NCBI RefSeq assembly: GCF_900101995.1
Contig: NZ_FNAS01000016.1
Span: 1 to 57,703 of the forward strand
Reading direction: 5' to 3'
DNA length: 57,703 bases
DNA from: Riemerella columbipharyngis
GTDB taxonomy: Bacteria; Bacteroidota; Bacteroidia; Flavobacteriales; Weeksellaceae
Shown here: positions 1,698 through 11,847 of the stretch, piece by piece
How the letters are laid out: the number at the start of each line of letters is the position of its first letter
Numbering within the stretch: the first letter of the stretch is position 1
Program-made: the position numbers and the translations under genes
The notes under the pieces: model-generated
Databases searched by the model: none
Seen by the model: the letters and a program-made list of their open reading frames with translations, nothing else
What the model was told of the DNA's origin: nothing

Positions 1698-1893
1698 CTC
1701 CCGAAGAGTTTTAAAAACATTTCGGCTTGGTTCTGCAAGCGCCAATGTTCCAACCATTGAGCTTGGGCATATAATTTATTCCACTCACTTACTTGCAGGC
1801 TCTCTGGGTTTATCCCAAAATTAGCCCTAATCAACGCATCGGCTTTCCACTTCTCTCTTTCCGTATATTGCGAGCCACAGAGCTCGCTTACAA
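1694..1893 (-). other. -1 frame extension (tail-assembly chaperone T-like end)
   Basis: An open frame of 66 codons follows the shift site at 1894-1900 in the -1 frame and ends at TAG 1694-1696. It has no ATG, GTG or TTG start that fits. It contains EREKWKADALIRANFGIN and WNKLYAQAQWLEHWRLQN, a hydrophilic helical segment of the sort that forms the frameshift-made end of tail assembly chaperones (the lambda G-T pattern). Joined to the upstream frame it gives a product of about 373 residues. Family assignment is inference from position, length and the frameshift signal. Confidence 0.55.
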
Positions 1894-1900
1894 GTTTTTT
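1870..1900 (-). promoter_or_regulatory. Programmed -1 frameshift signal (slippery site plus hairpin)
   Basis: On the minus strand the heptamer A AAA AAC (1900-1894) is in the X XXY YYZ register of the zero frame (GCA AAA AAC TTG TAA). A six-base spacer TTGTAA follows, then a perfect stem GCGAGC/GCTCGC (1887-1882 with 1875-1870) around a six-base loop. A -1 slip enters the 66-codon open frame directly. This is the standard layout used by tailed phages to make the long form of the tail assembly chaperone. Confidence 0.7.
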
Positions 1901-2814
1901 GCTTCGGCAGTGGTTTTCTGCATTCGCGCCATGAGCGCTTCCACCGCTTTGGCTTTGAGCATATCTCGTAGCTCTATTTCCTCGTCGGCTTTTACAATGT
2001 AATTGGCATAGGCAGACTGCACGGCTTTCATTTCGTTGGTCTTGCTAATTTTCGTTAGTGCTTCCAATTGCTGGGGTGTGTAATCGCCGAGCTTGGAGCC
2101 ATCACAAAAGGCGGGCACATCCAATTCCAAAGCTTTCCACTCATCACCCGTTAAGGCTTTGTCGTAAGTGGTAGTTACTAAATTCTGACGCTCTACATAG
2201 GCCACGCTTTCGTGGACTTGGGCTTTGGATAACGCGCCCAAAATTGTCCCAATGCACGAGAGGGAGGGGTTGGTTTGGTGCAAAAAGTTTCCACGCCCTG
2301 CACCGTCTTGCCCAATGATAACGCTTACCTTGTCGCTTTCCATTGCGTGCAAATCTGGAAGAGAGGTCATCTCCGAAGTTTGAATTTTCAAGGAAAAAAG
2401 AATAGAAAGTGGCGTAATACGCTGGCTAAGTTCTTGGGCTATGGCTTGTAATTTCTTGACGCAAGTTTGCAGATTGGAGCTTGCCGTTTTAAAATCACAA
2501 ACGGCCAATTGCCTAATTTTCCCTTGTGCGAAATTCTGTAATACTTTTACTTCGGTGTAGTTCTGGTCGGAAGTTGCTACCGCTTGCACATAAAGTTTTG
2601 CCCCTAAATTGATGCGAAAAAACTCGCTCACTTGATAGTGCAAAACAGGGTGCGAAGTGGCGGAAACCCCCAGTGCTTCCAATTCTTCCACCGATAAAAT
2701 AAGGGCTTTTTCCACGGCTGTTTCGCCGTACACGATAAGTCCGGAGGTAGCGTCCTCACTGGCAAGGGTTCTGCCCAGCCCGCCGTTTTCTCTGATAAAT
2801 TTAACGCCGTTCAT
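1888..2814 (-). CDS. Tail sheath N-terminal part fused to tail-chaperone-like end (DUF2586-like, deletion product)
   Basis: Residues 1-254 look like the DUF2586 family, the contractile tail sheath protein of Bacteroidota Mu-like phages. Signs are the start MNGVKFIRENGGLGRTL, the VSVIIGQDG and GTILGALSKAQVHESVAYV segments, and ELDVPAFCDGSKL. The usual sheath C-terminal region is then missing. After about residue 255 (near base 2052) the sequence becomes Lys/Glu/Ala-rich helix (KADEEIELRDMLKAKAVEALM) and ends at a frameshift site. In Mu-like phages the order is sheath, tube, tail chaperone, so one internal deletion could have removed the sheath end, the tube gene and the start of the chaperone. 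The hybrid is unlikely to assemble a working tail. It follows the 74-residue gene with no gap. Confidence 0.65.
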   Translation of the reverse strand: MNGVKFIRENGGLGRTLASEDATSGLIVYGETAVEKALILSVEELEALGVSATSHPVLHYQVSEFFRINLGAKLYVQAVATSDQNYTEVKVLQNFAQGKIRQLAVCDFKTASSNLQTCVKKLQAIAQELSQRITPLSILFSLKIQTSEMTSLPDLHAMESDKVSVIIGQDGAGRGNFLHQTNPSLSCIGTILGALSKAQVHESVAYVERQNLVTTTYDKALTGDEWKALELDVPAFCDGSKLGDYTPQQLEALTKISKTNEMKAVQSAYANYIVKADEEIELRDMLKAKAVEALMARMQKTTAEAKNL

Positions 2815-3039
2815 TTATTTTTTCGTTTTGGTTTGTTTTTTATTAGGTTCTGCAACATCTTCGGTTGCTGTCTCCTCTACTTTTTCGGATTTATCCTCGC
2901 CACGCACTAATTTTTTAACCTTTTTATCCTCTAAATTTGAGGCGTAGTTTTTAGCGTCGTTTTCTGTATAAAAATATTTTCCGTCGGAAGTCTTATACAC
3001 TACATCAAGCTGTGGGTTTTCTTTAAATATAGGTTCCAT
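2815..3039 (-). CDS. Small charged phage protein downstream of the capsid gene
   Basis: The 74-residue protein has an ordered-looking first half (VVYKTSDGKYFYTENDAKNYA) and a Lys/Glu-rich disordered tail ending in KKQTKTKK. It sits between the major capsid gene and the sheath gene and abuts the latter without a gap. Mu has small genes such as gp35 in the matching place, but no real similarity can be claimed. The aromatic N-terminal segment followed by a charged tail recurs in short Bacteroidota prophage proteins of unknown role. Confidence 0.65.
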   Translation of the reverse strand: MEPIFKENPQLDVVYKTSDGKYFYTENDAKNYASNLEDKKVKKLVRGEDKSEKVEETATEDVAEPNKKQTKTKK

Positions 3040-3106
3040 TTGATTGTTTTTAAATAATTGATAATTAAAGAAAAAGGGCTAAATAGGCTTAGCCCTTACA
3101 TCCTTT

Positions 3107-3988
3107 TTAGATTAAAGCCGCACGCCATTTATCTTCCACAGGAGTAGCGATAAAATAATGACGATAACTGAGTAAATTGGCTTGGTTCTCCGGATCTTTC
3201 CCTGCCTCACTAAAATATTGTTTAGTGATACCGGTTTTCTTGGCAGTATTCTCCAATACAAAGGCTACCGATGCAGGTTTGTCGCCACTGCCAGCTACTT
3301 CGCCAAAGGCTTTTTTAGTCTTATCGGCTTTATAGTGTGGTGAGGCAATGTATTTTTTAATCTCAAAGCCTGCAATGACCGGAGAAACTTCTCCTGTTTT
3401 GTAATTGATAAGCTGGTCACCGAAGTTTTTGCGGTCCTTTAAAAGGGCGTTCCAGTGCTTGTTGCAAAGCACTAAACGGCGTCCCTCTTCTGGCCACTCG
3501 GCAGCATCGCATTTGTCTTTGAGGTTTACCAAATCCTCATAAGTACACCCCACAGAAGCATCGGCAATATCTAACACGATATTCCCTTTGGTAGGCTCGT
3601 CTTGTTGTGGTGCGATGGAGTGTAGGGCTTTTTTCATTTTCCTTGCTCCAATGGAGTTGGTTTGTGCTTTGGTAATGGCATCAATACGCTCGTAGCTCGC
3701 CCCTTGAATTTGGTCGTCGGTGAGTTTGGCGGGTTTGGTTTGGTATTTATCCAAGTTGATAACTACTTCGTCATCATCGTACTCTTGCACGGGAAGCGGA
3801 TAAGTGTTGTTGTTAATCAACACCTCCGGTGCAAATTGTGTGGTGGGTACATGGATAATGTTTTTTTCACCCATTTGGGTAACATCGCCGTCAAGTTCTG
3901 CTACACCGTCAAGGAAATCGGCGTTGGCTCCTTTTTCGAGGGTTTGTCTTACTCGTCCCTCCCATATCTCTGGAAAATTCTTTGGCAT
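3107..3988 (-). CDS. Mu-like major capsid protein
   Basis: The 293-residue protein is soluble, with no signal peptide. It starts MPKNFPEIWEGRVRQTLEKG and ends in a segment with RHYFIATPVEDKWRAALI. Length and position directly downstream of the protease/scaffold gene match the major head protein of Mu-like phages (Mu gpT position). Internal features such as VINLDKYQTKP and RRLVLCNKHWNALLKD fit a HK97-fold shell protein. It would form the icosahedral head after the scaffold is removed. The frame is complete with no sign of decay. Assignment rests on gene order and familiarity with Bacteroidota prophage capsids. Confidence 0.75.
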   Translation of the reverse strand: MPKNFPEIWEGRVRQTLEKGANADFLDGVAELDGDVTQMGEKNIIHVPTTQFAPEVLINNNTYPLPVQEYDDDEVVINLDKYQTKPAKLTDDQIQGASYERIDAITKAQTNSIGARKMKKALHSIAPQQDEPTKGNIVLDIADASVGCTYEDLVNLKDKCDAAEWPEEGRRLVLCNKHWNALLKDRKNFGDQLINYKTGEVSPVIAGFEIKKYIASPHYKADKTKKAFGEVAGSGDKPASVAFVLENTAKKTGITKQYFSEAGKDPENQANLLSYRHYFIATPVEDKWRAALI

Positions 3989-4022
3989 AATTCTATTTTT
4001 TTTATTGGTTTTTAATTATTGT

Positions 4023-4490
4023 TTAAAGTGATTTTAAAATGGCTTTATAACCCTCTGGATTCGATTGTTTAAACGCCAATTGCTCCGTCAAACTCAATTT
4101 TTGAAACTCTTCCATGGTTTGGACCACTCCGCTTGGAGTTTTCACATCGGGCGAAAAGTTTTGTTTCGCTGGAATAGCCTCAAGCGCTGATTTGGCTAAA
4201 TCAAAATTCTGATGAGCTAAGTCAATGAACGATTGCTGTTTGTCGGCGGTGATTTTGCCTTGTTTCACAGCAAGCGATACCATCTCGGTAATGGCTTTGT
4301 CTTTTTCTTCTTTTGCCTTTTTTTCATAGGCTTGTACTTTTTCCTCTGAAAGCTGGAGTTTTTGTTCTAAATCTTTCTTTTGCTTATCCAAGCTCAGCAA
4401 TGCCTCATTGATTTGTTCGGCATCTAATTCCTGCGCTGTTGCAAATCCTAAGATGAGCAATGCAGCTGTGCTTAATTGTACTTTTTTCAT
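4023..4490 (-). CDS. Possible nested scaffold protein (Mu Z-like internal start)
   Basis: An in-frame ATG at 4490 begins MKKVQLSTAALLILGFATAQ, just before the coiled-coil scaffold region of the protease gene. In Mu, scaffold Z is made from an internal start within protease gene I, so the same arrangement is plausible. The first 20 residues look like a signal peptide, odd for a scaffold, and no strong ribosome site is visible. The product would be about 155 residues. Confidence 0.35.
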   Translation of the reverse strand: MKKVQLSTAALLILGFATAQELDAEQINEALLSLDKQKKDLEQKLQLSEEKVQAYEKKAKEEKDKAITEMVSLAVKQGKITADKQQSFIDLAHQNFDLAKSALEAIPAKQNFSPDVKTPSGVVQTMEEFQKLSLTEQLAFKQSNPEGYKAILKSL

Positions 4491-4967
4491 ATGTTCTGGT
4501 TTAAAATTTTCGTTATTTTCAATAGATAGGCACAGGTTCTGCACTTCATCGCCTGTTAAAAGTTTGTTGTCTACATATAAGCGCAAAGCATTGGCATTGC
4601 TGGGAATGGAAACGATACTTGCCTCTAAAAGCTCGCAAGCGGAGAGGATTAGCTCGCCATTTTCATAATGTAAATCCTGACGCTTAAAGGCAATACCCAT
4701 ACTTGCCCCTTTGATAACTCCACGCTCTACTTTGCCTGCAATTAAGGCGGCGTTTTGGTCCTCTGTATCAAAATCGGTATCGGCAGAGAGTTTGCCCTCT
4801 TCTGTCTGAATATCTTTCCATTTACCTATTACGGAAAGATTGGACGGATTATGCCCGTCGAGCATTACAGGATTTTGAGCAAAACGCTCCAAATTGATAC
4901 CATCAGTTTTTATTTTAAAGCCGTACGAGTTGGCCTTTGTTTCATCGTTTAATATAAATCGTGGCAT
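4023..4967 (-). CDS. Prohead maturation protease with C-terminal scaffold region
   Basis: The 314-residue protein starts at MPRFILNDET (ATG 4967); longer upstream starts read through a non-coding-looking leader. Residues 1-130 resemble HK97-type prohead proteases (family U35/S78), with a candidate catalytic His39 (MLDGHNP) and Ser89 (KGASMGI). From about residue 160 it changes to a long coiled coil rich in Lys, Glu and Gln (DKQKKDLEQKLQLSEEKVQ), typical of a scaffold. This matches Mu protein I, whose 3' half also encodes scaffold Z from an internal start. It lies directly before the capsid gene and heads the leftward transcript, divergent from terminase. Confidence 0.75.
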   Translation of the reverse strand: MPRFILNDETKANSYGFKIKTDGINLERFAQNPVMLDGHNPSNLSVIGKWKDIQTEEGKLSADTDFDTEDQNAALIAGKVERGVIKGASMGIAFKRQDLHYENGELILSACELLEASIVSIPSNANALRLYVDNKLLTGDEVQNLCLSIENNENFKPEHMKKVQLSTAALLILGFATAQELDAEQINEALLSLDKQKKDLEQKLQLSEEKVQAYEKKAKEEKDKAITEMVSLAVKQGKITADKQQSFIDLAHQNFDLAKSALEAIPAKQNFSPDVKTPSGVVQTMEEFQKLSLTEQLAFKQSNPEGYKAILKSL

Positions 4968-5167
4968 TTTCGTTGTTTTAATTTTGATTGAACACGGAGG
5001 TTGTCCGCTCTGTTTTACGGTGCAAATTTGGAATGTAAAAGACTGATATAAAAATAGTTGTTTGACTATTTGACAGGTTTGTATCAACATTCTACAATGT
5101 TGTCGCATGACGATACAATTCTTTTTTTTCAAGATATTTCTATTAGAATTTTGCCCATAAAAAGACA
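4968..5167. promoter_or_regulatory. Divergent control region of the prophage head genes
   Basis: This 200-base gap separates the leftward head-protease operon from the rightward terminase operon. It holds two inverted repeats: AATAGT-N6-ACTATT (5053-5070) and AACATT-N4-AATGTT (5086-5101). They could be operators for a phage regulator that turns on both late transcripts. No perfect TAnnTTTG box is placed clearly for either side. Confidence 0.4.
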
Positions 5168-5593
5168 ATGGCAAAGACTCAAACACGCCTCAAGGCAGAG
5201 GAATTTTATATTGAGAATTTAGAAATCACTTTAAAAGAAGTGGCCGGACATTTTAAGGTAACCGAAAAAACCATCGGCAACTGGGCAAAGGCGGACAACT
5301 GGGAACAAAAACGCCTCAATTTCCACGCATCGCCAACTGCTATAAAACAAAAGCTCCAGCAAGAGGCACTTCGTGTGGCCAATGGCGAACCCGCAACCTT
5401 TAACGCTGATGCTGTGAATAAACTCATGGCGGCCATTGATAGACTCAACAAACAAGCCGACCCCATTGTCATTCATAAAATTTTAAAGGAACTGGATTAT
5501 TTCATTGCGGAGCAAGACCCGCAGTTTGCCAAAGAGTGCACCAAGTATCATAAACTTTTTTTACAATTAAAAATCAACAACATAGATAAGTAA
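5168..5593 (+). CDS. Phage terminase small subunit (HTH, DUF1804-like)
   Basis: The 141-residue protein has an N-terminal helix-turn-helix (LKEVAGHFKVTEKTIGNWAK, about residues 21-40) followed by WEQKR, the pattern of gpP-type/DUF1804 terminase small subunits. These bind phage DNA and guide the large subunit in packaging. The C-terminal half is helical. Its stop overlaps the start of the large-subunit gene by one base (TAATG), a coupling that supports the pairing. It heads the rightward head operon. Confidence 0.7.
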   Translation: MAKTQTRLKAEEFYIENLEITLKEVAGHFKVTEKTIGNWAKADNWEQKRLNFHASPTAIKQKLQQEALRVANGEPATFNADAVNKLMAAIDRLNKQADPIVIHKILKELDYFIAEQDPQFAKECTKYHKLFLQLKINNIDK

Positions 5594-7155
5594 TGGGCAA
5601 TAACAAATATTTAAAACTTTTACAGGATTACGACAAGCATTGCCAGCGTATTGCACAAGCAACTTCGGTTAAAGTAGGTGAAACCTCCAAAGAAAAAACC
5701 GAGCGTATAAGGCATTTAGAGGCGGATTATCTCCGCTGGTTTGCTTATTATTTTCCCAACTATGCCAAAAAACCCTCCGCGTGGTTCCACGCCAAGCTGG
5801 CGAGGCAAATTGTGAAACACAAGCGTTTAAGATTACTGGCAGAAATGTATCGCTCTGCCGGTAAATCCGTGCATATTGATATGGGTATTCCCTTGTATTT
5901 GTATTTGGCTAAAAATGATTTAAAGTTTATGCTTTTAGTGGGCGAGACCGAGCCTAAGGCAAAAAGGCTGCTTTCTTCTATACAGGCGCAATTGCAGTTT
6001 AATAATCGTATTAAAAACGATTACGGGCAGCGTTATTCTGCTGGGAATTGGGCGGATGGCGACTTTGCGACTTCCGACGGCGTGCGATTTATGTCGCTTG
6101 GCTTTGGGCAAAACCCACGAGGTGCCAGAGAGCAAGCCGAACGCCCCGATTACATTGTCGTTGATGATGTGGATAGTAAAAAATCCATCCACAACGACCG
6201 CATTATGCGCGAAGCAGTGGACTATATTACAGAGGATATTTGGGGCTGTTTTGACACCGACGAAGACGCTACCGAGCGTTTTGTTTTTGCCAATAACAAC
6301 TTTCATAAAAACTCCATTACCAACCGCTTAAAAAGCTATTTCAAACAAGTAATTGCAGGGGAAGATAAAAAGGAAAAAAGCGCCCTGCATTTTGAAGTTT
6401 TAAGCGTTTGTGCCGTCAAGGATTTAATCAACTTTGAACCCGAATGGCCGGAGAAAACCAGTGCTGATTATTGGCGCAAAAAGTACGAAAAAACACCGCG
6501 CCGTTCTTTTATGCGTGAATATATGCACACCCACATTGAAGACGGTGCGATATTCAAGCACGAAAATATTTTGTATAAACCCGCCCTACCGCTTAAAAAA
6601 TACGATGCGCTGTGCTTTTATGGCGCCCTTTCCTATAAGGCCAACGCTGATTACAAAGCGCTGGTTTTGGTAGGTATCACCGGCAAGGAATATCATATCA
6701 TCACCGCCTATATGCAGCAAAAAAGCCGTGCCCATTGCGCCGAATGGCTTTATAATACCTACGAGGAGAACCATTTAGAAAAATTTAATATCCGCTATCT
6801 CATTGAGGGGCTTTTTGCAATGGACGATTTTGTTTCGGACTTTGACCGAGAGGGCGAAAAGCGTGGTTATTATATTCCAGTGGTAGCCGATAAGCGCCCC
6901 AAAACGGATAAGTTTGATAGGATAGAAAGTTTGTCGGGGTATTTTGAGCGTAAGAATGTGTTTTTTAACGCCAACTTAAAAGAAGACCCCGATATGCAAA
7001 CACTCATTGACCAGTTCCTTGCTTTTGAGAAAGGAAGTGGGGCTCACGATGACGGGCCCGATGCTGTGCATGGTGCCTTTAACTACCTAAGCACGCGTAC
7101 ACGAAGAAATAAAAGCACCTACCGATTTGGCGCAAGAGTAAATAATAAATATTGA
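5593..7155 (+). CDS. Phage terminase large subunit
   Basis: The 520-residue protein has an ATPase part with MYRSAGKS (about residues 86-93) as a Walker-A-like motif and YIVVDDVDS as Walker B. The C-terminal part looks like an RNase H-fold nuclease (DYKALVLVG, later AHDDGPDAVHGAF). It would power DNA packaging and cut the genome in Mu-like head assembly (Mu gp28 position). One oddity: where relatives usually read YxDPS before DYKA, this protein has FYGALSYK, so the first nuclease Asp seems absent. The frame is otherwise intact. Confidence 0.8.
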   Translation: MGNNKYLKLLQDYDKHCQRIAQATSVKVGETSKEKTERIRHLEADYLRWFAYYFPNYAKKPSAWFHAKLARQIVKHKRLRLLAEMYRSAGKSVHIDMGIPLYLYLAKNDLKFMLLVGETEPKAKRLLSSIQAQLQFNNRIKNDYGQRYSAGNWADGDFATSDGVRFMSLGFGQNPRGAREQAERPDYIVVDDVDSKKSIHNDRIMREAVDYITEDIWGCFDTDEDATERFVFANNNFHKNSITNRLKSYFKQVIAGEDKKEKSALHFEVLSVCAVKDLINFEPEWPEKTSADYWRKKYEKTPRRSFMREYMHTHIEDGAIFKHENILYKPALPLKKYDALCFYGALSYKANADYKALVLVGITGKEYHIITAYMQQKSRAHCAEWLYNTYEENHLEKFNIRYLIEGLFAMDDFVSDFDREGEKRGYYIPVVADKRPKTDKFDRIESLSGYFERKNVFFNANLKEDPDMQTLIDQFLAFEKGSGAHDDGPDAVHGAFNYLSTRTRRNKSTYRFGARVNNKY

Positions 7156-7160
7156 AAACT

Positions 7161-7655
7161 ATGTTTCTACAAAAAGAAGATTTAAAAAACAACATTTACG
7201 GCTATCAAGTAGAGCAAATCACAGAGGGAGACGATAGCATTGTTTTACAGGCTATGGCAGCCGCAGAGCAAGAGCTAAAAAGTTACTTGCAAGGCAACAA
7301 CAAACGCGAGTATCTGGACGGGCGCTTGCGTTATGATATAGATAAAATCTTTTCCGCACAAGGCGATGAGCGTAACGCGATGCTTTTAAACTGCGCTATC
7401 AATATTGCCAAGTGGAATATTATTGATTTATGTAATGCGGATATTCTTCACGAGCGAGCCAAAGAACGCTATGACCGCGCCACCCAATGGCTTAAACAAC
7501 TCGCCAAAGGAGAGGTAAATTTACCAGACTTGCCCGTGCTTTCTGATGATGAAAACCAAAACCCAGACGGCACAGAAAAAATCGTTTTTGTATATGGCTC
7601 TCGACCTAAATTCAACCATAGTTTTGACCCTATAAATAAAATGAAAAATGAATGA
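7161..7655 (+). CDS. DUF1320/gp36-like phage head-tail protein
   Basis: The protein (MFLQKEDLKNNIYGYQVEQI) is rich in charged helix, with AEQELKSYLQG and ERYDRATQWLKQLAKGEVNLPDLP. The DR-x-x-QWL...G...LP end is typical of DUF1320 proteins (Mu gp36), which help connect head and tail. The ATG at 7161 is chosen. A TTG at 7152 overlapping the terminase stop (TTGA) is an alternative that adds three residues. The last codons overlap the next gene by eight bases. Confidence 0.65.
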   Translation: MFLQKEDLKNNIYGYQVEQITEGDDSIVLQAMAAAEQELKSYLQGNNKREYLDGRLRYDIDKIFSAQGDERNAMLLNCAINIAKWNIIDLCNADILHERAKERYDRATQWLKQLAKGEVNLPDLPVLSDDENQNPDGTEKIVFVYGSRPKFNHSFDPINKMKNE

Positions 7656-7944
7656 TATACAACTCACTGATGAGTACGATTTGGTGTTTAAAAAGGGGGA
7701 TTTAGCCGTTTCTGAAAGCTCCGAGCGACACATAGAGCACTTGCTTATCGCCGCACAAGGAGAGTACAAAGAATCGCCCCTCACTGGCTCGGATATTCAA
7801 AAGGCAAAGCACGGCAAAATAGACCGAATGCTTGACCGCCATATACGCGTACAAATGGAAGCTGACGGCTTTCATTTGGAGCAATTGGCCATCACCGAAA
7901 AAGGAATACAAATCAAAGGCAAATACAATGAAAAAAACAAATAA
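7648..7944 (+). CDS. gp25/W-like baseplate-type small protein
   Basis: The 98-residue protein has the pattern DLVFKKGDLAVSES...HIEHLLIAAQGEYKESPLTG...IRVQMEADGF, seen in short gp25/gpW-like proteins of Bacteroidota prophages. gp25 forms part of the contractile-tail baseplate wedge. It overlaps both neighbours, the upstream start by 8 bases and the portal start by 17 bases, so all three are translationally linked. Finding a baseplate-type gene between terminase and portal is unusual. Confidence 0.5.
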   Translation: MNDIQLTDEYDLVFKKGDLAVSESSERHIEHLLIAAQGEYKESPLTGSDIQKAKHGKIDRMLDRHIRVQMEADGFHLEQLAITEKGIQIKGKYNEKNK

Positions 7945-9133
7945 CAAAGCTACAAAACGAAGCAAAAATAACCCTGCACGCTATTTTAAAACCATTGAGC
8001 CAAAGGCTATGGCACAAACGCGCATTGATGTACAAATATGGAAACAAGCACAAGCACAAGCCTCTAATGTAGAACGCCCTAAAATGTTTCCATTCTACAA
8101 TTTAATGCAAGAAATGATGCTTGATGCGCACGCTTATTCGCAACTGCAAAACCGCAAGCGCAAAACCCTTTCGGCTAACTTTTCACTCAAAAAACAAAAC
8201 GGCGACACCCACGAGGAGCTTACGGATAAATTCCAGAAATCTAAACTCTCCAGCGATATTATTTCGGCAATTTTGGATGCGGAGTTTTACGGGCATTCTC
8301 TCATTGAATTTGCCTATAATACCGAAAGCCTCAACCTTGAAGCTCCGCTGGAAATGGCACTTATTCCACGCCAAAATGTAATTCCCCAAAAGGGCGAGCT
8401 TGTCAAAGACTACACCGACGATAGAGCGATAAAATACCGCGAGACGCCCGAGTTTGGCACTTGGCTGTTGGAGTTTTCTGGCAGTGAACCGCTGGGGCTT
8501 TTAAACAAGGCTGTGCCACATATTTTATTCTCTCGTTTCGCCCAATCCTGCTGGTCGGAACTGTGCGAGATTTACGGCATTCCACCGCGCGTGATGCACA
8601 CCAATACGCAGGACCCGTATGCCTTGAAACGTGCCGAAAAAATGATGATGGATATGGGTGCCGCCGCGTGGTTTATCATTGACGACACCGAAAAATTTGA
8701 GTTCGCCAATACCGGCACACCCGCCAGTGGCGAAGTCTATAACGGACTCATTAAGCTCTGCCGTGATAATATTTCACTTTTGATTTCTGGGGCTATCATT
8801 GGGCAAGATACAAAATTTGGAAGCAAGGGCAAGGAGCAGAGCTCGCAGGAAATGTTGCAGGAGCTTATCAATGCCGACCAAACGATGGTAGAGTTTTATA
8901 TGAACGATAGTGTTTTGCCCGCACTTGCACGCATTGGCTACTTGGAAGAGGGGCTAACCTTTGCCTTTGACCAAGTAGATGATTTGGCGGAGCTTTTCGA
9001 CAGAACCATTAAACTTTTGCCCTATAAAAATATTCCAGATGATTGGATAAAAGAAAAATTTGGTGTGGAAGTCTCCGGTGAGCGGGTAGCACCGAACACA
9101 GGACAAAATTTAGCCTTAGATTTTTTCGACTAA
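7928..9133 (+). CDS. Mu-like portal protein (DUF935)
   Basis: The start MKKTNNKATKRSKNN (ATG 7928) is preferred over a longer frame that runs through the upstream gene. The 401-residue protein has LMQEMMLDAHAYSQLQNRK near the N-terminus, HILFSRFAQSCWSELCEIYG in the middle and LINADQTMVEFYMND near the end, consistent with DUF935/Mu gp29 portals. Twelve copies would form the channel at one head vertex. The last codons GAT TTT TTC GAC TAA contain a slippery heptamer followed by a strong hairpin, so part of the product may continue into the MuF frame. The gene appears intact. Confidence 0.75.
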   Translation: MKKTNNKATKRSKNNPARYFKTIEPKAMAQTRIDVQIWKQAQAQASNVERPKMFPFYNLMQEMMLDAHAYSQLQNRKRKTLSANFSLKKQNGDTHEELTDKFQKSKLSSDIISAILDAEFYGHSLIEFAYNTESLNLEAPLEMALIPRQNVIPQKGELVKDYTDDRAIKYRETPEFGTWLLEFSGSEPLGLLNKAVPHILFSRFAQSCWSELCEIYGIPPRVMHTNTQDPYALKRAEKMMMDMGAAAWFIIDDTEKFEFANTGTPASGEVYNGLIKLCRDNISLLISGAIIGQDTKFGSKGKEQSSQEMLQELINADQTMVEFYMNDSVLPALARIGYLEEGLTFAFDQVDDLAELFDRTIKLLPYKNIPDDWIKEKFGVEVSGERVAPNTGQNLALDFFD

Positions 9134-9166
9134 GGGCTGAAAATACTCAACGCTATTTTTCAGCCC
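9121..9166 (+). promoter_or_regulatory. Candidate programmed -1 frameshift signal joining portal and MuF
   Basis: T TTT TTC (9121-9127) lies in the X XXY YYZ register of the portal frame. Six bases later (GACTAA, including the portal stop) begins a perfect ten-pair stem GGGCTGAAAA/TTTTCAGCCC (9134-9143 with 9157-9166) with a 13-base loop. A -1 slip reads CGA CTA AGG and stays open through the MuF gene to 10620. No T-run follows the stem, so it is not a terminator. The layout copies that of the tail-chaperone signal at 1870-1900. Confidence 0.6.
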
Positions 9167-9264
9167 TGCACCAAAGTTTAGAGGAGCAATACCAGCCCTG
9201 CGATTGCCCCTCTTGCCAAGCGCAAAGGGAACACCTTAATTTAAATAAAAAGCCCGCCCATGCT

Positions 9265-10620
9265 ATGGGCAAGTTTAAACAGGTTTTAAACTATGCTGAA
9301 AAGGCTTTTAAAACGCTTTACGAAAAGCAAGGTTACCACCCAGAGGATTTGGCACAGATTACCGAATATAAAGGCTTAATTAATAAAACGGCGGAGATTT
9401 TAAGCGAACAAATCCCCTATGAAACTCCTGCCGAAATGCGCCAATATCTGGAGCAGGATGTGTTTGTTTTCTCTGGATTAAAAACCCACGCCCAGCTAAC
9501 AGAGGCACGCTCTTACCTCAAAGATGAACAGGGCAATTTAAGGGCTTACCACGATTTTGAACAAAAAGTTTTAAAACTCAATGAAAAATACAACCACCAT
9601 TATTTGGAGGCAGAGTATGAATTTGCCGCGCATAGTGCTATAAGTGCCAGCCAATGGGCAAATTTAGAAAACGACACCGAGCGTTATTGGTTAGAATACC
9701 GCACCGCCGGCGATGAACGCGTAAGAGCCTCACACGATGCCTTGCGTGGGGTATGCTTGCCTAAAACCGACCCTTTTTGGGATAGTTTCTACCCACCCAA
9801 TGGCTGGCGATGCCGTTGTGTAGCCGTAGAAGTTTTAGCAAGAGAAAAAACGCTTACCGATAGCCAAAAGGCACAAGAAATGGGAGAAAAAGCCACTACC
9901 CAAATAGGCAAAAATGGCAAAAATAAACTGGCAATGTTCCGTTTCAATGCAGGAAAAAATAAAAAGATTTTTCCGCCTGAAAATAGCTATACCAAGGTAG
10001 TTGGAGCCAAAGAAGCTAAAAAGGCAGTGGAGGACTTATTGAAAAAGGATTATGAAATACTACTGCACGAAGACACTGGTTTTAAAATAATCCTCTCCGA
10101 TATTAAAAAGCGTTATATGGAGGTTTTTCCTAAAATAGATATTGAAAAGCGGGCTTCGGTAAGGATGTATACTACCTCTTTTTATGATGAACTGAATAAG
10201 TTTAACAGAAAGATAGGGCAAGGAAGCCCCGAGAGGAAAGACTTTTACCACGCCATTACCCGCACCATAAATAAAGCCTTAGACGAAATCCCCGACCGAT
10301 TTACAGGTAAGGTGTATCGAGGCGTGGAATTTAGTAAAAGAAAGAATAATTTAGATGTTTTGGAGAGCTATAAAAAAGCCTTTGAAACAGGGGAGACTAT
10401 CATAGAGAAAGCACATTTATCTACTTCCTATGATGAAAAATCAAAATTTAATGGAAATGTTATTTTTGAAATAGAAGCTAAAAATATCGCCATTATTGAA
10501 AAACTTTCGCGATTTGGTTCGGAAAAAGAAGCATTATTTAAAGCAGGTCAAGAGTTTAAGGTTACAGATGTAATAGATAAAGGAAATGATGAATATTTGA
10601 TAAAAATGACACAAATTTAA
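9265..10620 (+). CDS. MuF-type head protein with C-terminal ADP-ribosyltransferase domain
   Basis: Residues 1-190 form a phage Mu F-like minor head domain, with the family signature YWLEYRTAGDERVRASHDAL and GWRCRCVAVEVL. Residues about 290-451 look like an ADP-ribosyltransferase exoenzyme domain (PF03496 type): Arg352 (VYRGVEF), Ser386-Thr387-Ser388 (AHLSTSYD) and Glu420-x-Glu422 (GSEKEALF) form the R-S-E core. MuF-toxin fusions are known in other prophages, where the enzyme is packaged in the head and may be injected with DNA. ATG 9265 is the first ATG, but the frame is open upstream to 9112 without a usual start. Those 46 codons include CDCPSC and could be translated by frameshift from the portal. 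Confidence 0.75.
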   Translation: MGKFKQVLNYAEKAFKTLYEKQGYHPEDLAQITEYKGLINKTAEILSEQIPYETPAEMRQYLEQDVFVFSGLKTHAQLTEARSYLKDEQGNLRAYHDFEQKVLKLNEKYNHHYLEAEYEFAAHSAISASQWANLENDTERYWLEYRTAGDERVRASHDALRGVCLPKTDPFWDSFYPPNGWRCRCVAVEVLAREKTLTDSQKAQEMGEKATTQIGKNGKNKLAMFRFNAGKNKKIFPPENSYTKVVGAKEAKKAVEDLLKKDYEILLHEDTGFKIILSDIKKRYMEVFPKIDIEKRASVRMYTTSFYDELNKFNRKIGQGSPERKDFYHAITRTINKALDEIPDRFTGKVYRGVEFSKRKNNLDVLESYKKAFETGETIIEKAHLSTSYDEKSKFNGNVIFEIEAKNIAIIEKLSRFGSEKEALFKAGQEFKVTDVIDKGNDEYLIKMTQI

Positions 10621-10808
10621 CTTACGGTAGATTGCATTTTATCAGCCCAACGGCGTTCTTCTTCCAAAACTTGCTTTAAGTCTTCAGAAGATAGTTCAGA
10701 TTGTAGCTTTTCAATTTCTGCAGTATACCACTTGGCTCTATCAAACGCATCTAATTCTTGAGGAGCTTTTAGTTCTTCTACCGCTTTACGATACTCTTGC
10801 AGTGTCAT
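10617..10808 (-). CDS. Small convergent protein next to MuF-ART; possible immunity/antitoxin
   Basis: The 63-residue acidic, helical protein (YRKAVEELKAPQELDAFDRAKW, SSEDLKQVLEEERRWADKM) has no recognised family. It lies on the opposite strand inside the rightward head operon and overlaps the end of the MuF-ADP-ribosyltransferase gene by four bases. It carries its own Bacteroidota-type -7 box, so it could be made while the phage genes are silent. That position and small acidic nature fit an immunity or antitoxin protein for the ADP-ribosyltransferase, but this is inference. A plain moron gene is the alternative. Confidence 0.55.
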   Translation of the reverse strand: MTLQEYRKAVEELKAPQELDAFDRAKWYTAEIEKLQSELSSEDLKQVLEEERRWADKMQSTVS

Positions 10809-10830
10809 AATACTAAATGTTTTTAGAGCA

Positions 10831-10838
10831 CAAAGTTA
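10831..10838 (-). promoter_or_regulatory. -7 promoter box for the small convergent gene
   Basis: On the minus strand TAACTTTG matches the Bacteroidota -7 consensus TAnnTTTG and lies 22 bases before the ATG at 10808. The -33 box is weak, with no TTTG at the ideal distance. Confidence 0.45.
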
Positions 10839-10858
10839 CAAAAAAATAAATATAAACT

Positions 10859-11398
10859 ATGAAACCCGAAGACTTTTTAAAAACCACACTCACGGATATA
10901 AAGGTAAAGATCAGCGAGGAGTTTGATAGAAACTTTGAGCGCAAAGCCTTTTTTGATAAGAAATGGAAACAGCCTAAGCTCATCAACCGCCGTGGCTCTG
11001 TAATGATACGAACAGGGAAACTCCGCCGCTCTATCAGTTCAAAGCTCACCCCCAAAGGCATTGTTTTCACCAGTGCAATGCCTTACGCAGAGATGCTTAA
11101 CAACGGCGGAGAAATCATCGTTACCGAGAAAATGAAACGCTTTTTTTGGGCAAAATATTACGAGAGTTCTGGGGCTATCAAAACCACAAAAACAGGTAAG
11201 GTTTCCTACTCCCAACGAAATAAAAAATTAAGACTTGAAGCCGAACAATGGAAAGCCCTTGCGCTTAAAAAAGTAGGCTCTAAAATGAAAATAGAACCAC
11301 GCCAATTCATTGGGCATCACCCGCAAATTGATAACACCATTAGGGAAATTGTAAATAAAAACCTCAAAGAATTAGAAATAAAACCTTTTAAAAAATGA
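10859..11398 (+). CDS. Phage virion morphogenesis / tail completion protein (Mu gpG-like)
   Basis: The 179-residue basic protein has the pattern of the phage virion morphogenesis family: KKWKQPKLINRRGSVMIRTGKLRRSI, then FTSAMPYAEMLNNGGEI, then PRQFIGHHP near the C-terminus. Members (Mu gpG, P2 gpS) act at tail completion or head-tail joining. It starts just after the small convergent gene and overlaps the next gene by ATGA. It resumes the rightward operon after the interruption and appears complete. Confidence 0.75.
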   Translation: MKPEDFLKTTLTDIKVKISEEFDRNFERKAFFDKKWKQPKLINRRGSVMIRTGKLRRSISSKLTPKGIVFTSAMPYAEMLNNGGEIIVTEKMKRFFWAKYYESSGAIKTTKTGKVSYSQRNKKLRLEAEQWKALALKKVGSKMKIEPRQFIGHHPQIDNTIREIVNKNLKELEIKPFKK

Positions 11399-11847
11399 AA
11401 ACACTTTTAGAAAACTTACAAGCCCGCCTTTCAGAAGTTACCGAACTAAAATATATTGATGAAAACTGGGGGCAGTTAGACTACTATTCGCCCAATATGC
11501 CTGTACAATGGCCGTGCTGCCTTATAGATATAGCACAGGCGGATTATTCCAATATGGGGAAAGATTTTAGTAAAAAGCCCAAAGACAGACAGAATGTCAG
11601 CCTTTCGGTGGAGTTTACCCTTGCTAATGTAAAGCTAACCAATACCAGCCTCAAAGCCCCACAAAACCAAAAAGACAACGCGTGGGCAATCTTTGAATGG
11701 GCGGAGAAAATTCACGAAAAACTGCACGGCTTTTCGCCTTTGGAAAACGCCTCCAAAATGCTCCGTTTTTCCTTTGGGAGAGTGCAAAGAGACGACGGCG
11801 TGCAGGAGTATAAAATCATCTATCATTTAGAGATGCACAATGTTTAG
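11395..11847 (+). CDS. Phage tail-terminator-like protein of unknown family
   Basis: The 150-residue protein has WPCCLIDIAQADYSNMG, then SLSVEFTLANVKLTN, then a helix and a closing strand YKIIYHLEMHNV. The mix of strands and helix, and the place right after the virion morphogenesis gene, fit tail-terminator proteins (Mu gp37/gp38 or lambda gpU role). No sequence family is claimed. Its start overlaps the previous stop (ATGA). It is the last gene of the rightward head operon. Confidence 0.6.
   Translation: MKTLLENLQARLSEVTELKYIDENWGQLDYYSPNMPVQWPCCLIDIAQADYSNMGKDFSKKPKDRQNVSLSVEFTLANVKLTNTSLKAPQNQKDNAWAIFEWAEKIHEKLHGFSPLENASKMLRFSFGRVQRDDGVQEYKIIYHLEMHNV

Follow-up and report, generated by a model that had tools for sequence, protein, structure and literature searches.

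In phages, -1 frameshifts are described for the tail-assembly chaperones, with lambda G/GT and SPP1 gp17.5 (UUUUUUC) as examples (PMC6316719, PMC7911831). Frameshifts are also described in capsid genes, where T7 10A/10B and the phiEco32-like phage Privateer produce a minor, longer head protein that is found in virions (PMC7881722). Here a candidate -1 frameshift is described between two other genes, the portal gene and the gene for a MuF-ADP-ribosyltransferase protein, in a Mu-like prophage region of Riemerella columbipharyngis (contig NZ_FNAS01000016.1; the whole stretch analysed, 57,703 nucleotides (nt) in length, is called the window). As in the tail chaperones, ribosomes are predicted to slip by -1 on a heptamer of the form X XXY YYZ close to the 3' end of a morphogenesis gene, giving a minor extended product. 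What sets it apart from the tail chaperones is the gene pair, portal and MuF, and a product that would form part of the virion and carry a toxin. In T7 and Privateer a shell protein gains a tail, whereas here a 12-fold portal would gain a whole downstream toxin-bearing protein.

MuF proteins have been described as polymorphic toxins, encoded directly 3' of the portal gene and carrying a variable C-terminal toxin domain (Jamet 2017, PMC5576092), with Bxa as a further case (PMC11699363). The window shares this layout, with a MuF domain directly 3' of the portal gene and a toxin domain at the C-terminus, the latter being an ADP-ribosyltransferase domain as in Bxa. However, the MuF proteins of both accounts are separate proteins, and the word 'frameshift' is absent from both main texts (PMC5576092, PMC11699363), while the MuF protein of the window is predicted to be an extension of the portal. 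A MuF-like protein fused to the portal in one gene is found in the Microbacterium phage clusters EA3, EA5, EA8 and EB; these fusions are in-frame, and frameshifting is mentioned there for the tail chaperones (PMC7302621). In SPP1, the MuF-type protein gp7 is located at the portal vertex in one to few copies (PMC5576092, PMC6316719), and its binding to the portal protein gp6 is non-covalent, in contrast to the covalent tether predicted here. Tail chaperones were the training material of PRFect, whose main text does not contain the word 'portal' (PMC10885494). Aligning with the initial annotation of the window, which knew of no frameshift at this gene pair, no description of a portal-MuF frameshift was found in the full-text literature searched, subscription papers and preprints lying outside the search.

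The junction in the window consists of the following elements.

7928..9133, + strand: portal gene of the Mu gp29/DUF935 type (401 amino acids), starting at ATG 7928, zero-frame product ending ...LDFFD (Portal_Mu, E 2.8e-69)
9121..9127, + strand: putative slippery heptamer T TTT TTC, read as X XXY YYZ in the portal frame, identified from sequence and enrichment
9128..9133, + strand: spacer GACTAA, 6 nt, with the portal stop inside it at 9131-9133; an offset of 6 is the commonest among T-type stems
9134..9166, + strand: hairpin with 5' arm 9134-9143, loop 9144-9156 and 3' arm 9157-9166, identified from sequence, folding and covariation in relatives
9127..9264, + strand: MuF extension, 46 codons in the -1 frame without ATG, GTG or TTG, protein-conserved among near relatives (LH..L..QY..CDC..C)
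9127..10620, + strand: MuF-ADP-ribosyltransferase frame, 497 amino acids, entered by the predicted -1 slip, with the MuF domain at about 9547-9825 and the ADP-ribosyltransferase domain at about 10117-10605

The portal frame ends GAT TTT TTC GAC TAA, and the hairpin arms GGGCTGAAAA (9134-9143) and TTTTCAGCCC (9157-9166) pair at ten of ten positions around a 13-nt loop, with a possible eleventh pair between A9133 and T9167. The in-register heptamer, 6-nt spacer and ten-pair hairpin that had been proposed from the letters alone therefore match the sequence base for base. Folding of 71 nt around the slip site gives -17.5 kcal/mol (z = -2.74), a value equalled by 3 of 200 shuffles. Reading in the MuF frame stays open over 512 codons, from 9082 to 10620, with ATG 9265 as the earliest ATG, GTG or TTG, so the claim of a -1 frame open for 46 codons with no normal start before 9265 is correct. 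The predicted product of 400 + 497 = 897 residues agrees with the earlier estimate, and Pfam found Portal_Mu in the first open reading frame (ORF) and Phage_Mu_F (2.1e-12) with ADPrib_exo_Tox (9.3e-10) in the second, in keeping with the identities that had been assigned. The window thus combines an in-register heptamer, a 10-bp stem after 6 nt and an overlapping startless -1 ORF, as is characteristic of -1 frameshift sites. Its position between portal and MuF domains is not that of a tail-assembly chaperone (G/GT) site, which is found between the genes for the major tail protein and the tape measure. The hairpin was also considered as an intrinsic terminator, a candidate that was dropped because no T-run stands behind it on either strand (by eye).

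With a probability of roughly 0.92, the conserved heptamer and hairpin at the 3' end of the portal gene divert some of the ribosomes into the -1 frame, and one message would then give both portal and portal-MuF(-toxin). The basis of this reading is at the level of sequence, and consists of the site, its register, its spacing, the hairpin, their conservation, the missing start codon, the protein conservation of the -1 frame and the existence of natural fusions. In the proposed mechanism, two Phe-tRNAs would slip in tandem, moving from TTT-TTC onto TTT-TTT during a pause of the ribosome at the hairpin, and ribosomes that do not slip would terminate at TAA, making the portal the main product and the fusion the minor one in the layout of the window. 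Twelve subunits form the portal ring, and frameshifting by some percent of ribosomes would therefore result in rings with about one to few MuF-bearing subunits, MuF and its C-terminal toxin being held on a flexible tether. This covalent tether would replace non-covalent recruitment, as of SPP1 gp7 by its portal. An AlphaFold model of the window's portal, with a predicted local distance difference test (pLDDT) score of 80, has as its best matches in the PDB the C12 portal of JBD30 and the portal of Mu, as does the sequence profile, and the last 12 residues of the model have pLDDT below 50. For comparison, the model of L240, one of the natural fusions discussed below, places the junction (codon 413) in a low-confidence linker (373-432) before the helical MuF domain; this model is moderate (pLDDT 74, predicted template modelling score 0.49) and supports the position of the linker alone. 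Together, the low-confidence portal end and the linker of L240 make such a tether plausible.

Relatives of the junction were collected from the window's own and near genomes, annotated phages, Bacteroidota genomes and IMG/VR contigs, giving 469 loci, of which 450 had a portal with a stop and formed 319 clusters at 90% portal identity. From the Bacteroidota genomes, the 80 best of 254 confirmed places were taken; their record titles assign all of them to Bacteroidota, and those with a class span five classes. The IMG/VR loci were obtained with four Bacteroidota-type portal queries (the best 80 loci for two of them), and the control loci with D3112 and Mu queries; a fusion from the window's own genome, L022, matched itself alone when used as a query against viral contigs. 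'Bacteroidota-type' is defined by the nearest portal query, with the host phylum checked for the 80 genome loci, and the control group, which includes pippi-type Flavobacterium phages, is defined likewise. Among the 265 Bacteroidota-type clusters, 223 have MuF at -1 and, in register, a heptamer whose second half is A or T and through which both frames stay open. The rest comprise 29 single-ORF fusions, 3 junctions at -1 without a heptamer, 5 at +1, 1 at 0, and 4 that are cut or broken. The control group of 54 clusters contains 49 classifiable junctions (27 at +1, 12 at -1 and 10 at 0), and the heptamer is found at none of these 49, whether of Mu, D3112 or other types. The other five controls comprise two long ORFs that were counted as fusions on their length (L427, L467), two clusters that lack a short ORF behind the portal and one that has it.

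The heptamers of the 223 clusters are TTTTTTC (148), AAAAAAA (34), AAATTTT (15), AAAAAAG (13), TTTTTTT (10), CCCTTTC (2) and GGGAAAG (1). The signal recurs in five Bacteroidota classes, and other heptamers take its place in some lineages. In an out-of-sample draw of 296 genomes of the phylum Bacteroidota, matches were obtained in five genomes besides the window's own, none of them overlapping the earlier loci (blastn 1e-20). Four of the five have a heptamer and a stem by eye (T TTT TTC in three, A AAT TTT in one), and in the fifth, an in-frame fusion, A AAT TTT stands close to the junction, its stem unscored. This recurrence bears on the possibility that a single gene has been broken or mis-sequenced, or that the signal has died and persists as a relic in the prophage remnant. 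Such an origin would suit the make-up of the prophage region, which is reduced to head, neck and one sheath-like gene between host genes, as well as the existence of in-frame fusions, but the out-of-frame layout recurs in 223 clusters with the heptamer kept, and a relic would have been functional until recently, because both frames are intact. This explanation is very improbable, and a sequencing error or broken gene was dropped as a candidate since 223 clusters share the arrangement.

Enrichment of the heptamer at the portal end is pronounced. Within the 223 clusters, TTTTTTC occurs in the portal register 148 times in the 5,798 codons that make up the last 26 codons of each portal and twice in 86,739 body codons. 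As this set was preselected for the heptamer, the enrichment was recounted without such selection, and 152 of 236 unfused Bacteroidota-type portals were found to carry TTTTTTC in register within their last 26 codons, compared to 2 occurrences in 91,579 codons of their bodies. No in-register TTTTTTC was found in the last 26 codons of the 52 unfused controls.

When scored as pairs plus GC pairs (threshold at least 12, stem start 4-9 nt after the heptamer), stems are present at 89% of T-type sites (n = 158) compared to 3.3% of shuffles, and at 78% of mixed or other sites (n = 18) compared to 5%. Of the 141 T-type stems, 83 have 6 nt between the heptamer and the 5' arm, and 38 have 5 nt. Covariation was assessed in 691 ordered pairs from 116 loci, gapless outside the stem and with the stem taken from one locus; 278 of 359 double-changed stem cells still pair (77%), compared to 22-45% when the partners are slid by 1-3 nt. 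The cells are not independent of each other. Single-changed cells still pair in 307 of 676 cases. A first version of this comparison, made without an indel check, gave 44% against 42-44% in the slid controls and hence no signal, owing to loop lengths that differ between loci. Heptamer, spacer and stem are kept, with compensatory changes, in relatives down to about 25% portal identity. In hankyphage p00 (L001 2534-2582, BK010646), T TTT TTC is followed by a 6-nt spacer and the stem GCCCCG...CGGGGC, 46 nt before the portal stop, and the heptamer is present there in 28 of 28 classifiable hankyphage-type viral contigs, while three more run off the end.

The codons that follow the slip site are conserved as protein. 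In the extension, the -1 frame has a mean BLOSUM62 score of 91.5, compared to 25.2 and 24.5 for the two remaining frames (28 pairs, 8 loci), so that the impression of the initial annotation that these 46 codons look like real protein holds, in that frame alone, across 8 near loci. Between the window and its nearest relative L007 (portal 63% identical, MuF about 67-69% identical), substitutions number 7, 14 and 18 at codon positions 1, 2 and 3, and indels are of three bases. The CxCxxC motif of the extension is not universal, being found within 60 residues in 80 of the 223 clusters, with C-x(0-3)-C found within 70 residues in 151. The slip signal itself is also shared by L007, which has the same heptamer and spacer and nearly alike arms, one terminal pair being G-U for A-U. 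ATG 9265 is absent from L007, where a 3-nt deletion lies beside it, and the first ATG of L007 stands at +305 and its first TTG at +50 from the portal stop. No clear MuF ATG thus occurs at the same place in the nearest homologue, and with heptamer and stem also kept in relatives, the frameshift reading withstood both refuting conditions that the initial annotation had named. An independent start at ATG 9265 was dropped as a candidate because it is not conserved there.

A more general form of this alternative would have MuF initiated separately, at ATG 9265 or at a non-standard codon past the portal stop, with the hairpin serving in coupling or reinitiation. ATG 9265 does exist in the window, and Mu and D3112 are annotated with a separate MuF start. 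Of the 223 clusters, 186 have their first MuF ATG beyond +60, and 144 have it beyond +150; in the controls, it is beyond +60 in 4 of 49, while 45 of 49 have an ATG at or before that point. Weighing on the other side, 37 of the 223 have an ATG at or before +60, 15 of these upstream of the portal stop, including hankyphage (ATG at -4); an ATG falls within 60 nt of the stop in 30, and ATG, GTG or TTG in 93, making separate initiation possible in such clusters. Hankyphage, with both a T-type signal and its ATG at -4, has both routes open. Nonetheless, separate initiation is very improbable for the window, given that the nearest relative lacks ATG 9265, that the preceding 46 codons are protein-conserved at -1, that MuF at -1 coincides with an in-register heptamer in 223 of the 265 clusters, and that a natural fusion with the same junction exists, nearly all fusions having kept the slip site. 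As an observation on its own, the annotated MuF start of hankyphage (ATG at -4) may not be the sole one.

The natural fusions, in which portal and MuF form one ORF, include L028, L078, L091 (a Pedobacter arcticus prophage), L129, most of L235-L254, and L374. L028, from Flavobacterium covae, encodes LDFFRLSPESYFGALHQKL...CDCNGC where the slip in the window predicts LDFF followed by RLRAENTQRYFSALHQSL...CDCPSC. L028 carries a seventh T, so a homopolymer sequencing error is possible in that one genome; the other fusions have a related but different junction (FF..AP). In all five fusions scanned (L240, L129, L078, L374, L022), Portal_Mu, Phage_Mu_F and PBECR2 are found in single ORFs of 829-853 amino acids, and Porphyromonas phage015a is annotated with a single portal coding sequence of 853 amino acids. 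An in-register heptamer at the junction is kept in 27 of the 29 fusions, 22 of them being T-type or CCCTTTT sites whose stem scores at least 12 at a spacer of 5-7 nt, and 5 of them A-type. The criterion for these, chosen once the fusions had been inspected, accepts within codons 375-500 either A AAA AAA/G or a T-type or CCCTTTT heptamer that has a stem; the background for all kinds of in-register A/T heptamer together is 96 per 20,570 codons. Fusion L369 is partial. Where the junction of a fusion contains Phe-Phe, it is written T TTT TTY in 21 of 21 cases, compared to 20 of 198 elsewhere (portal bodies 9/96, MuF bodies 11/102), and two more Phe-Phe pairs, seven codons upstream of the junction, are not T TTT TTY.

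In E. coli dnaX, a cellular gene, a slippery site inside a long ORF leads to a -1 slip that ends translation early. The fusions may be comparable, as 27 of 29 have a slip site followed by a -1 stop 1-36 codons on, the opposite of the layout in the window. A -1 slip would end after 15-36 codons at the T-type sites, about as expected by chance, and after 1-13 codons at the A-type ones, where alone the stop is close, as in L022, from another contig of the window's genome, in which A AAA AAG is followed in the -1 frame by GAA TAA. Judged by their sequences, the fusion slip sites would yield portal alone, a dnaX-like mirror image of the window layout, and the signal retained in these in-frame lineages would do the reverse of what is proposed for the window, giving portal without MuF. 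Unlike dnaX, which has one orientation, either product can be the default here, as fused and shifted layouts interchange at least 13 times by parsimony (FastTree, 306 portals; L369, L011, unclassifiable junctions and portals below 300 amino acids left out). That 27 of 29 fusions retain a slip site they should not need suggests selection for both products, and the selected trait is most likely the mixture of the two. On a wider view, which is favoured with clearly less confidence than the frameshift itself, Mu-like phages across the phylum may build mixed portal rings, in which the signal would set the MuF-armed share of the twelve subunits, the default having flipped often while the ratio was selected.

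The A-type sites differ from the others. Exactly ten A are found in 33 of 47 stop-default A-type sites and in 5 of 5 A-type fusions, and no A9 was found in 53,532 nt of A-type portal bodies. Portals ending in ten A (L290-L369, L304, L335, L022) occur in both layouts and are nearly always stemless, and L340 has a ten-A run with MuF at +1. These features would suit transcriptional slippage, in which RNA polymerase slips on a homopolymer and mixed messages are made, with no ribosomal shift. Transcriptional slippage requires a run of about 9 or more. Most A-type sites have such a run, while the window and 145 of 158 T-type sites have six T only, below that length. The heptamers A AAT TTT, C CCT TTC and G GGA AAG are not homopolymers, and slippage by the polymerase leaves the stem and its spacing unexplained. 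As an account of the junction in the window, transcriptional slippage is therefore highly unlikely.

Besides the near start codons given above, further observations count against a ribosomal frameshift or narrow its reach. For the 47 of 223 sites with A-runs, transcriptional slippage is as good an explanation and a live alternative, as a stem is present at 4% of A-type sites (2 of 47), compared to 1.8% of shuffles. When the 13 exceptions among the 265 Bacteroidota-type clusters were read singly, L011, L042, L136, L321 and L357 were found to have a heptamer or ten-A run with an end or break downstream, L013, L178, L309, L367 and L368 look ordinary, L340 and L182 would require a +1 shift, and L040 is without a heptamer. 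The Flavobacterium phages pippi8-1 and FPSV-S4 (L372, L373) start MuF at an ordinary ATG in the +1 frame. In the control-type fragment L447, which lies outside the representatives, A AAA AAC at -7 is accompanied by an ATG at +2. Fusion L100, from a Tannerellaceae metagenome-assembled genome, keeps the stem (by eye) with the heptamer changed to CTTTTTC, and is perhaps a lineage losing the slip. Finally, the prophage of the window is a remnant, with phage genes at about 1.9-11.8 kb (1891-11847). As a separate matter, pippi8-1, FPSV-S4 and Peternella are all Winoviridae by their records.

If the frameshift is real, two frames that are split by ordinary gene calling, in hankyphage among others, would be one protein, and MuF toxins annotated from a downstream start would lack their real N-terminal part. 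It would also account for the entry of MuF into the virion with no start codon of its own, and would amount to a genetic rule for toxin copy number at the portal vertex. The presence of the same signal in both orientations would serve as a natural experiment. Toxin delivery through the portal would become directly testable, as silent mutation of the heptamer should abolish the fusion without altering the portal.

The toxins carried by the frameshift class were surveyed in 95 of 202 eligible MuF frames. Phage_Mu_F was found in 92 of the 95, along with CdiA_C in 21, PBECR2 in 9, Gln_amidase in 5, LPD3 in 2, and ADPrib_exo_Tox and Imm43 in 1 each; more than half of the sampled frames have no recognised toxin. 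The predicted frameshift is thus not tied to one toxin.

Within the source genome (2.1 Mb), there are six MuF loci, on contigs C12, C14, C24, C32, C37 and C38, and the five that are readable show four slip layouts. T TTT TTC with a stem is found in the window and on C24, a ten-A run on C32, G GGA AAG with a 10-bp long-range stem (by eye) on C12, and an in-frame fusion with a ten-A run on C38. An IMG/VR contig carries the window's junction with 100% portal identity, and is probably from the same isolate and hence not independent.

The remnant in the window encodes sheath-like, capsid, protease, terminase, adaptor, portal, MuF and neck proteins, and its genes on either side of the junction include the following.

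5168..7655, + strand: DNA-binding protein (possible small terminase), large terminase and head-tail adaptor of the same prophage
10859..11847, + strand: neck/tail-completion protein and phrog_6911 protein of the same prophage

A Bax1-I gene (139-825) precedes the prophage, and genes for an AraC-type regulator, biotin carboxylase and other housekeeping functions come after it. Ten of ten further large ORFs scanned between 16.2 and 31.8 kb, a subset of the window ORFs scanned, are of housekeeping types, and no transposase was found among the window ORFs scanned, which are part of all its ORFs. On the opposite strand, a 63-amino-acid ORF (10617-10808, - strand) adjoins the end of the MuF-ADP-ribosyltransferase frame and might be an immunity gene.

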